Shown piece by piece: positions 41,124 to 47,177 of a stretch of DNA of 64,000 nucleotides. Every line of letters starts with the position of its first letter. The first letter of the stretch is position 1. The notes under the pieces were generated by a model. It made no database searches, was not told the origin of the DNA, and was given only the letters and a program-made list of their open reading frames with translations. The position numbers were made by a program, and so were the translations under genes. This DNA is from an uncultured Roseicyclus sp. (GTDB lineage: Bacteria > Pseudomonadota > Alphaproteobacteria > Rhodobacterales > Rhodobacteraceae), in the NCBI GenBank assembly GCA_947494975.1, contig CANLXA010000002.1, forward strand, positions 248,001-312,000. The letters run 5' to 3'.

Positions 41124-41981
41124 TCACGCATTACCGTACTCTGAAATGGCAAGTTGAACTCGCCTCACGGACATATGAGCAACTTCGGTCTCCGGATCCA
41201 TATCGAAAATAACTATGACTCTTTTCGGATCTCTATCTAACTCGCCCTCAATGCCAACAACAAACCTAATGCCAAATAATTTTTCTACCAATGAGTCATA
41301 TTCCTGTGGGGAAATATTGTCAGGGAGTAGAAAAACTTGGGGAAAAAATTTTGGAGCTAACGCTGCATGTAAGTTGGACTTGCGTGGGGAACTATCCGCT
41401 GTGAATTGGCGCAGGGAATTTCGAAGATCAGCTATTTGCCGTTTTGTTGCCTGGAGTTCTTCCAGAATAACTGTGTCCACTGGCGCATGTTCGACCTCAA
41501 TCTTGGCAACCTTAAATGACCCAAAGCTCTTTAGGAAACTGGTATCACCACCGCCATCTGCGGTTGATTTTATTTTTTCTTGAAGTTTTTTCTGAAATGC
41601 CTCGATTTGCGAGAACCGAAGATCACGCGGGTAACTGAGGTGTTCGATTGGTGAAGTGTCAAACGAAAATGGCGTTTTGTCGTCCTTGATTATGATGGTG
41701 GGTTTGTCAAAAGCCAATCTCATGCCTAATTCGAACATCACGTTGGGGTTCCGACCGCTTATATCGCAAACAACAACTGGGTTGTCGTAGAGGTTTTGAA
41801 CAATTCTCTTTTGGATAACACCCATCTCATCAGCGTCGCTCACTAAGTTTGGAGAAAATCCAGCAGATTTTATGGTTCGTTTCAAAATATTCAATACTTC
41901 TGACCAATGGGATTCGGAGCACCCATCAAACTCTGAAATCGGCATAACTATGCCACAGTTTGGTTCTTCTTCTGTAGTCAC
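41124..41981 (-). CDS. Low-GC protein with nucleoside deoxyribosyltransferase/TIR-like N-terminal domain
   Basis: A 285-residue protein with markedly AT-rich codons. The N-terminal 110 residues show the flavodoxin-like pattern GIVMPISEF...VVVCDISGRNPNVMFELGMRLAFDKPTIII; the Glu in MFELG fits the catalytic glutamate position of NDT-like and TIR-like glycosidase folds. A short coiled coil (ILEELQATKRQIADLRNSLRQF) and a C-terminal alpha/beta domain of unknown type (FVVGIEGELDRDPKRVIVIFDMD) follow. The start is GTG (TTEEEPNCG) with a weak ribosome site. NDT-like domains act as effectors in some retrons; no reverse transcriptase is here. Function inferred only. Confidence 0.6.
   Translation of the reverse strand: MTTEEEPNCGIVMPISEFDGCSESHWSEVLNILKRTIKSAGFSPNLVSDADEMGVIQKRIVQNLYDNPVVVCDISGRNPNVMFELGMRLAFDKPTIIIKDDKTPFSFDTSPIEHLSYPRDLRFSQIEAFQKKLQEKIKSTADGGGDTSFLKSFGSFKVAKIEVEHAPVDTVILEELQATKRQIADLRNSLRQFTADSSPRKSNLHAALAPKFFPQVFLLPDNISPQEYDSLVEKLFGIRFVVGIEGELDRDPKRVIVIFDMDPETEVAHMSVRRVQLAISEYGNA

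Positions 41982-42432: not shown

Positions 42433-42434
<2 letters not shown>
42413..42434 (-). terminator. Hairpin at the lepA stop
   Basis: GAGGCGGGGC, AA, GCCCCGCCTC is a perfect ten-base inverted repeat that begins inside the lepA stop codon. No T-run follows on the lepA strand, so it may be a Rho-assisted terminator or 3'-end stabiliser. Confidence 0.55.
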
Positions 42435-44232
<1,798 letters not shown>

Positions 44233-44344
44233 GGACGGGCCTTGAAGCGTTGGGTTTCAAGGGGATGTAGCGTGTGGGGGAAAGGGAGGGAAGGGGGCGG
44301 TTGCGCCACTGGTATAGCAATGCCAAAGCCACTACGCAGTGTCG

Positions 44345-44518
44345 CTAATTTCTCTTGTGGTCCTGTTGCGTGGAGATGGCATGTAAACCTAAACTGATAG
44401 AAACCTCTTTCCTCGCATCCTTCCAAACCGCCACGATTGGTGTCTTCCGCCAGATTGCGATTAACAAAAGGACGAATACACCTCCCCCTACGATTGCTAG
44501 TGTCGGAAGTTCAAACAC
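44345..44518 (-). CDS. Small single-helix membrane protein
   Basis: A 57-residue protein, GTG start, with one N-terminal helix (LPTLAIVGGGVFVLLLIAIW) and a basic cytoplasmic tail (RKTPIVAVWKDARKEVSISL). The track only shows it within a longer 110-residue ORF, whose first part overlaps the ImmA gene. AAAGGCGG lies about five bases before the GTG. It starts 10 bases after the ImmA/IrrE stop, so it probably ends that operon. No family recognised. Confidence 0.5.
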   Translation of the reverse strand: MFELPTLAIVGGGVFVLLLIAIWRKTPIVAVWKDARKEVSISLGLHAISTQQDHKRN

Positions 44519-44528
44519 GTTCCGCCTT

Positions 44529-45227
44529 TCATTTTTGCCTCGATTGCTCAAGAAACAAGGCTCGCTGGTAGTCCTTGGCCAGCATTGCCGCCTGATACGC
44601 AGTTCTATTCGTGACGTCGTAAGTCTTGGACAATTGAGTGATCGATAGTGAGCCATCAAGTTTCGCAATGGGAACAAGGCAGGCGTACATGAAGCAGTCC
44701 GCTTCTTCTTCTAGGTCAAGGTTCTGCGCCTTTAGGGCCAAGGGGTCGGCGCTGCTTCCGCGGTGTTGATTGTGGGCGGCCCGGACCGTGGAAAGGGTGG
44801 CCGATCGAGCGCGAGCGATTAGTTTCCTTCGATGGCTTGGGAGATGAACATGTCCCAACTCGTGAGCGATAACTTCGAACGCGTGCCGGCGATTGGCGCA
44901 TCCAGTTTTCGCTCCGTAAAGGTGGTCCCAAATGAACTCACGCATAAAAACAATAGTTTCCCCGGAAAAGTCACAAAAGGCTTCGACACCTTCCATGAAA
45001 CCGCGTTCTGCGATGAAGTGCTGGTCGTCTGGCATGAAGTAAACGCCATCTGGGAGGCCATGCTGAATGGCTAAGAGTGCATCGAAGACGCCAAACAAGT
45101 CAGAAAATTTAGTTCGATAGACCGCAGCGGTGTCACAGACTTCCAAAAGCCGATTATGCCCCATGTTTCTTCGGGGGCGGTCGTCCCTCAAGTTGGAATA
45201 CGGAAACTTCGGGATTCTAATACTCAT
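44529..45227 (-). CDS. ImmA/IrrE-type metallopeptidase domain protein
   Basis: A 232-residue protein whose zinc-peptidase motif HELGH is at residues 122-126 (AFEVIAHELGHVHLPSH), with the third ligand expected in LDLEEEADCFMYACL. ImmA/IrrE peptidases typically cleave or inactivate a partner XRE repressor, as in ICEBs1 ImmA-ImmR; the preceding gene is such a repressor. The ATG is four bases after the XRE stop, with GGAG nine bases upstream. Composition is lower in GC than surrounding core genes. Confidence 0.85.
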   Translation of the reverse strand: MSIRIPKFPYSNLRDDRPRRNMGHNRLLEVCDTAAVYRTKFSDLFGVFDALLAIQHGLPDGVYFMPDDQHFIAERGFMEGVEAFCDFSGETIVFMREFIWDHLYGAKTGCANRRHAFEVIAHELGHVHLPSHRRKLIARARSATLSTVRAAHNQHRGSSADPLALKAQNLDLEEEADCFMYACLVPIAKLDGSLSITQLSKTYDVTNRTAYQAAMLAKDYQRALFLEQSRQK

Positions 45228-45231
45228 GGTC

Positions 45232-45552
45232 TTACTCCGGGAGGTAGTCATCGCCGCGCAAAGTTTGCATGAACGCAACAATCTTTTTGGCCTCTTCGGG
45301 CCCCTTGGGTCTAACCGATATCTTGTACTGGCTGATCTTCGCCAGAAATCGCAGTTCCTCAGCTTCGGATGCTGTAAGAGCGAACGCTTTAATGGTGGCA
45401 TCTACAAATGCTGTGGTCGGAGGCCGCGAGCCATTTAGAACCCTCGCCAGCAGTGCCGGAGATAGCCTCATTGAATTTGCGATGGATCGATAGCTCCGCG
45501 CGCTCTTGCGAGCCAGATCCTGAAACCTTTTCGAGAACGGGGAAATCGACAT
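45232..45552 (-). CDS. XRE-family transcriptional regulator
   Basis: A 106-residue protein with an N-terminal helix-turn-helix: FQDLARKSARSYRSIANSMRLSPALLARVLNGSRPPTTAFVDATIKAFALTASEAEEL, the usual lambda-repressor-like pattern. The start is Met29 of the ORF (MSISPFSKRF), with TTGGAGGC five bases upstream. First gene of the XRE-ImmA-membrane protein unit. It likely autoregulates through the palindrome at 45579-45602. Confidence 0.85.
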   Translation of the reverse strand: MSISPFSKRFQDLARKSARSYRSIANSMRLSPALLARVLNGSRPPTTAFVDATIKAFALTASEAEELRFLAKISQYKISVRPKGPEEAKKIVAFMQTLRGDDYLPE

Positions 45553-45574
45553 TTGGGCCTCCAAGTTTGAGCTA

Positions 45575-45602
45575 AGTATTGACGGTTTACGGAAATTGTC
45601 AA
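45575..45602 (-). promoter_or_regulatory. Promoter and probable operator of the XRE-ImmA operon
   Basis: On the minus strand, TTGACA (45597-45602, perfect -35), a 16-base spacer and AATACT (45575-45580, -10), about 25 bases before the XRE start. An imperfect palindrome TTGAC-N14-GTCAA with inner TTT/AAA (9 of 12 positions paired) covers 45579-45602, so a bound dimer would occlude the polymerase. Autorepression is inferred. Confidence 0.65.
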
Positions 45603-45663
45603 CACAATATTGCGATAGGCCGGGAAAAGGCAACAAGATGTAGTGCTTCGGCTCGGCCAGCGC

Positions 45664-46545: not shown

Positions 46546-46739
46546 GGCTGTGTCGTGTCCGGTATGAGCGCTGTGGTGTGCAGTGTTTCATGGGGAGGGT
46601 GGGGCGGACAAGGCGGGTTGCGGCGCCGCAGGATGTGTGTGGGCGCCTGTCCACTTCCGCCAAGACAATCGCGATCCTTCCGCGTAGGCTGTGCGCAGCC
46701 CTCTCGACGCCCCGGCCGATCCCCGGCCCCGGGGGCTGG

Positions 46740-47177
46740 GTGGCAACCGGGAGAACGGCCATCGCGGATCTCGTTCAACTTATCTATTCCTCGCGCCCGT
46801 TCGGGTATGACAGCGCCATGCTGAGCGGCATCCTGGTCGATGCCCGGCGGTGCAACACCCGCGACGGCGTGACCGGCGCGCTGGTGTGCCGCAATGATGT
46901 GTTCCTGCAGCTGCTGGAAGGGCCCGCGGCGGCGGTGGAGGCGACATTGGCGCGGATTGCGCGGGACGATCGGCATGTGGATGTGACGGTGCGCGTGTCG
47001 AAATCGGTGGCGGCGCGGATGTTCGGCGATTGGGCGATGCTGCATGATCCGGCGACCTCGTGGATCTGGTCGGCCCAGGAGATCTCGGGCGGGGCGCTCG
47101 ACCGCGCGGCGCCGGAAGATTACGAGGCGATCTTCGAGACGCTGGCGCGGCAGGCCGCCGCGGGGCGGGCGACGTGA
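46740..47177 (+). CDS. BLUF-domain blue-light sensor
   Basis: A 145-residue single-domain photoreceptor. Residues 11-105 match BLUF (FAD blue-light sensing): LVQLIYSSRPFGYDSAMLSGILVDARRCNTRDGVTGALVCRNDVFLQLLEGP. The flavin-interacting Tyr (Y16), Asn (N39) and Gln (Q57) are all present, as is the DDRHVDVTV and FGDWAM tail. The start is uncertain: a GTG at 46740 is the nearest candidate and has a weak ribosome site. No output domain is fused, so it must signal through a partner. Confidence 0.88.
   Translation: MATGRTAIADLVQLIYSSRPFGYDSAMLSGILVDARRCNTRDGVTGALVCRNDVFLQLLEGPAAAVEATLARIARDDRHVDVTVRVSKSVAARMFGDWAMLHDPATSWIWSAQEISGGALDRAAPEDYEAIFETLARQAAAGRAT

Follow-up and report, generated by a model that had tools for sequence, protein, structure and literature searches.

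Organization of the locus

The window (the whole stretch of 64,000 nucleotides analyzed here, from an uncultured Roseicyclus sp. of the Rhodobacteraceae) carries on its minus strand three co-directional genes that encode, in order, an XRE-family repressor, an ImmA/IrrE-like zinc metallopeptidase and a small protein with a single transmembrane (TM) segment (Table 1). The first two genes are separated by 4 bp and the last two by 10 bp. The GC3 of the three genes is 0.52–0.59 vs 0.88 for lepA and 0.86 for the next upstream gene, which marks the block as foreign in composition. An earlier note on this DNA had described such an operon, unaccompanied by integrase or phage genes, and both points stand: the three genes form a tight, low-GC unit, and neither kind of gene is evident near the locus in the window or near its relatives. 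In the closest relative, genome G308, homology breaks off at window position 44234 and picks up again at 45640; an unrelated 374-aa gene fills the interval, and the cassette is therefore exchangeable. Also near the cassette is a gene for a BLUF blue-light sensor (46578–47177; PF04940, 2.7e-25).

Table 1. Features of the locus, in window coordinates (G591 and G308 are related genomes described in the text).
Feature	Position	Strand	Details
XRE-family repressor gene	45232–45552	-	106 aa, ATG start; PF13560 HTH_31; 56% identity with the G591 XRE gene
ImmA/IrrE-like zinc metallopeptidase gene	44529–45227	-	232 aa; HELGH and EEEAD; capP and phrog_87 matches
Small single-TM protein gene	44345–44518	-	57 aa, GTG start; conserved tail PI.A.W....E.S.SLG
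Conserved 26-bp block, predicted operator, ATATTGTGTTGACAATTTCCGTAAAC	45585–45610	-	half-sites GTTGAC-N7-GTAAAC at 45585–45603
Sigma-70-like promoter TTGACA-16-AATACT, overlapped by the predicted operator	45575–45602	-	consensus scan 10/12
Exchangeable low-GC cassette region, from lepA to the upstream SnoaL-like gene	44235–45640		G308 homology breakpoints
lepA (EF4), core gene anchoring the putative hotspot	42433–44232	-	Pfam LepA_C 8e-50

Relatives of the cassette

The peptidase lineage is rare. A scan of one genome per species (84,980 species) returned a single relative, the Rhodobacteraceae MAG contig L003, which starts inside the peptidase gene (57% identity over residues 131–232) and continues into a small gene of 61 aa. 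A profile run over 395 genomes of the order added G591, in which the XRE gene is intact and both the peptidase and the small gene have decayed: the peptidase gene is broken between two contigs, whose ends resemble inverted insertion-sequence termini, and the third gene is frameshifted past the TM segment, its downstream frame still reading VSAMWKAKSFEIILKFG (a short match, weak alone). This decay concerns one locus and cannot distinguish cost from drift, being compatible with either. The apparent insertion in the G591 peptidase (L005 1890–1974, L004 1–97) lies just after HELGH and has the inverted ends GAGCGTTT; the L003 contig starts at about the same codon as this interruption, perhaps by coincidence. 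A later search yielded G993, with a distant XRE–peptidase pair (PF06114 9.9e-9, above the cut-off) that has no small gene. There is no second copy in the genus of G591, and samples of the family, order and class held nothing else convincing of the peptidase lineage. Weak profile matches in frames of about 810 aa in other genera were set aside as false after three that were inspected proved to be PheT; a weak match in G137 (an 807-aa frame) probably belongs to the same group. We also rejected G895 as a relative, its candidate being a fused HTH-peptidase of another kind.

These searches bear on whether the cassette could be what remains of the immunity switch of an integrative element or prophage, with no function of its own. 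Its architecture is the same as that of ImmR/ImmA and of phage repressor–protease pairs; however, no relatives of the cassette were found in plasmids, phages or IMG/VR, no integrase or phage gene is evident at the window locus or in relatives, and the module is conserved together with its operator in different genera, so that we consider a functionless remnant improbable.

The repressor and the peptidase

The XRE protein matches PF13560 (HTH_31) at 4.7e-6, barely over the Pfam cut-off. The peptidase carries HELGH followed by EEEAD and has no match to PF06114, the Pfam M78 model, yet it is similar to the G591 product, which in turn resembles the PF06114 peptidase of G993. It matches PADLOC capP (PDLC04141) at 6.5e-5, over 81 residues only, and the phrog_87 metallo-protease at 5.3e-6; its matches to RmrA models are marginal (E 0.012–0.03), and the XRE protein has none to these models. 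AlphaFold models of the peptidase (pLDDT 37) and of the XRE protein (pLDDT 56) are both too poor for a fold search, and sequence searches of the PDB gave nothing useful, the only match being a weak one to CapP (0.12) for the G993 peptidase. The F94-M95 pair of the XRE protein, which may be an ImmR-like F-M cleavage site, is only loosely conserved and serves as a lead only.

The motifs, the gene order and the dedicated operator described below fit the earlier reading of the pair as a switch in which the peptidase removes the repressor. By analogy with IrrE/DdrO, ImmA/ImmR, MpaR and CapP/CapH, autorepression is probably relieved when the peptidase cuts the XRE protein. Cleavage within the C-terminal domain of DdrO by IrrE abolishes both dimerization and DNA binding (PMC8072749), ImmA/ImmR and MpaR provide further repressor–protease precedents (PMC6872733), and in the CapP/CapH system the peptidase is activated by single-stranded DNA (PMC13373217).

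Promoter and predicted operator

A consensus scan places a promoter upstream of the XRE gene (Table 1), as the earlier note had proposed; its further proposal that a 24-bp imperfect palindrome over this promoter forms the operator is not upheld. The palindrome (45579–45602) pairs at 18 of 24 positions, a level reached by 68 of the 63,977 24-mers in the window, which corresponds to about 0.09 expected occurrences in the 108 bp preceding the ATG; in G591 the homologous 24-mer pairs at only 10 of 24. With a weak, near-chance score and no retention in G591, it was rejected as the operator. The window and G591 do have ATMTTGTGTTGACANNNTCCGTAAAC in common, upstream of the XRE gene and at nearly the same distance from its ATG; the alignment of the two operator regions scores 32, against a mean of 16.1 and a maximum of 25 among shuffled sequences (0/500 reach it). 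Within it, inverted half-sites (GTTGAC-N7-GTAAAC, agreeing at 5/6 positions) cover the -35 box TTGACA. The predicted operator is this conserved 26-bp block, which overlaps the palindrome, and not the palindrome itself. The whole genome has a single copy of its motif GTTKAC-N7-GTMAAC, at the XRE promoter, and the repressor thus looks dedicated to its own operon.

The small membrane protein

The 57-aa reading frame, which the earlier note had picked out although the ORF track gave it no entry of its own, starts at the GTG at 44518, is preceded by an SD-like AAAGG and is nested in a listed TTG frame of 110 aa. Its product has one TM segment (residues 4–22, mean KD 2.5); the basic residues after it suggest, by the positive-inside rule, an N-out/C-in topology. 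It has no family match, and a profile of it run over 363 family genomes matched its own genome and no other. The 61-aa counterpart in L003 (335–520) is 41% identical over 44 residues and has the same kind of GTG start with an SD-like sequence ahead. The alignment of the two proteins scores 85, whereas shuffles that keep the hydrophobic pattern reach at most 57 (0/5000 attain the observed score), and the two genes differ by a dN of 0.61 and a dS of 1.42, a dN/dS of about 0.43 (NG86).

That the frame is no gene at all, as its absence in G993 and its frameshift in G591 could be taken to mean, is very hard to reconcile with the identity, the dN/dS and the shared start context of the L003 counterpart, and we regard it as highly improbable; judged by its substitution pattern, the small ORF is a real gene under purifying selection. 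The earlier note had named absence of the small ORF beside homologous pairs as a finding against its three-gene unit, and the relatives do not refute the unit: a small gene lies behind the peptidase in 3/3 close loci, frameshifted in one and intact in the window and L003, the only two intact copies known, and it is missing only beside the distant G993 pair.

The lepA flanks

The loci of the peptidase lineage adjoin lepA in 4/4 cases (the window, L003, G591 and G993). In the window the cassette is upstream of lepA and co-directional with it, lepA starting 112 bp downstream of the small gene; in L003, G591 and G993 it is convergent at the lepA 3' end, where the gene that overlaps lepA is the small one in L003 and the peptidase gene in G993. 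Within about 5 kb of lepA in 91 other neighborhoods (11 of the genus and 80 of other genera), tblastn found no relative and no convincing HEXXH...EA[DN] frame was present; the one further motif match, in L087, looks like chance. The four loci may reflect shared ancestry or recombination in the lepA flank, and are not proven independent insertions.

The orientation of lepA bears on a reading in which the small membrane protein is a sensor or anchor that gates the peptidase or tethers it to the membrane, with the output elsewhere, for example in lepA by read-through. The small gene always lies directly behind the peptidase, and in the window the short co-directional gap to lepA would suit such an arrangement. 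However, lepA cannot be the output in the three loci where it is convergent, the single genomic occurrence of the operator motif leaves no other XRE target visible, and the G993 pair does without the small gene; a sensor or anchor therefore seems unlikely to us, and we continue to favor the small protein as effector.

The flanks of lepA in the genus hold RelA_SpoT proteins (PDC-S33), Fic, DUF5343+HEPN (PDC-M34AB), TIR, MerR/DUF433 with DUF5615, Phd/Doc, HNH and a methylase-Mrr gene. In 37 of 80 genera the GC content of the 1.5 kb on the 3' side falls short of that of lepA by 7 points or more (5' side, 4/80), and low-GC ORFs in the flanks match DRT reverse transcriptases, PDC-S34, PDC-M32, PDC-S31, NsnA, PD-T4-2, Panacea, GmrSD, HEPN, TIR and nSTAND models. 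These counts and matches, which cover lepA neighborhoods only, suggest that the lepA flanks, mainly on the 3' side (L028–L038, L082–L161), may be a hotspot for short low-GC toxin-antitoxin (TA) and anti-phage cargo across Rhodobacteraceae genera.

Two further observations concern these flanks. On the other side of lepA in the window, a low-GC (0.43) gene of 285 aa (41124–41981) matches a TIR-type effector (PADLOC 1e-7) and phrog_3634 (6e-22), and L032 carries a relative of it in the corresponding position (39% over 60 residues). The 5' flank of 5/11 genus relatives holds a recurring family of 374–573 aa proteins with no Pfam match and 22–31% identity (L028 6575–7699, L031 4499–5641, L035 6787–8373, L036 6830–8446 and L038 4568–6289), and it is this family that replaces the module in G308.

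Comparison with known systems

CapH/CapP, which controls CBASS and other immune operons, shares with the cassette a separate small HTH repressor and a zinc peptidase placed ahead of the controlled gene, and capP is the best PADLOC match of the peptidase, at weak similarity; in the window, however, the pair is followed by one 57-aa TM gene and lepA rather than by a known immune operon (CBASS, Pycsar, Bub or others). RosmerTA likewise combines an HTH and an ImmA-like protease with a variable toxin, one of which, RmrT-D5 of the Kita phage, depolarizes membranes (PMC10440598), but RmrA is usually a single, fused protein (profiles of 357–400 aa) whereas the window has two genes. The cassette would work like both systems but lacks one tested feature of each, a known immune operon in the first case and an RmrA-type protein in the second, so we file it as a variant of the XRE + ImmA/IrrE repressor–protease kind. 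ImmR/ImmA of ICEBs1 and IrrE/DdrO of Deinococcus resemble it in pairing an XRE repressor with a cognate HEXXH peptidase, the repressor controlling its own operon; unlike them, the window module has no integrative-element genes, no regulon (a single genomic operator) and an extra small TM gene.

Pairs of COG2856 and Xre, which have the same pair architecture, were listed among predicted TA systems by Makarova et al. (2009), who also proposed a three-component TA in which the protease cleaves the repressor (PMC2701414). The third component in that survey is mostly RelE or PIN, whereas in the window it is a small TM protein, and Xre–membrane-protein pairs were excluded from the survey (PMC2701414). 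Such pairs, together with the pair that G993 carries alone, could argue for a two-gene type II TA with the peptidase as toxin, the XRE protein as antitoxin and the small protein as an accessory; however, the characterized peptidases of the ImmA/IrrE/CapP kind act on the repressor, and the small gene is under selection, which leaves a peptidase toxin quite unlikely.

Proposed mechanism and implications

The best reading is a repressor–protease switch akin to CapH/CapP or Rosmer, with one small membrane effector, located in a lepA hotspot. Apart from the repressor and the peptidase, the operon encodes only the small membrane protein, which is hence the likeliest output, and we infer its role as effector from the order of the peptidase and small genes, the decay in G591 and the TA- and defense-rich location. 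The XRE protein would repress its own promoter through the dedicated operator over the -35 box; a signal of stress or infection would lead the neighboring zinc peptidase to cleave it, probably in its C-terminal part; and derepression would supply more of the closely linked 57-aa protein, which may act at the inner membrane by growth arrest or depolarization, as a toxin or in abortive infection. A toxin or abortive-infection effector is favored because the small gene is retained beside the peptidase, because the two were lost but the XRE gene was kept in G591, and because of the TA and defense genes that keep company with lepA. Cleavage, signal, toxicity and a defense role are presumed, and we give even chances to the whole, a horizontally acquired three-gene module that is self-repressed and peptidase-switched, with the 57-aa protein as its membrane toxin or abortive-infection effector. 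Slightly short of even, in our estimate, is the prospect that it represents a new compact defense/TA type, in which a split XRE + ImmA-like peptidase and a single-TM micro-effector with the PI.A.W....E.S.SLG tail have moved between Rhodobacteraceae genera into lepA flanks.

The dedicated operator and the three genes make the proposal directly testable. If it is true, the repressor–protease switches known to guard immune operons would gain a minimal output in the form of a single membrane protein of 57 residues. The lepA flanks of Rhodobacteraceae look accessible to mining for new anti-phage and TA genes.
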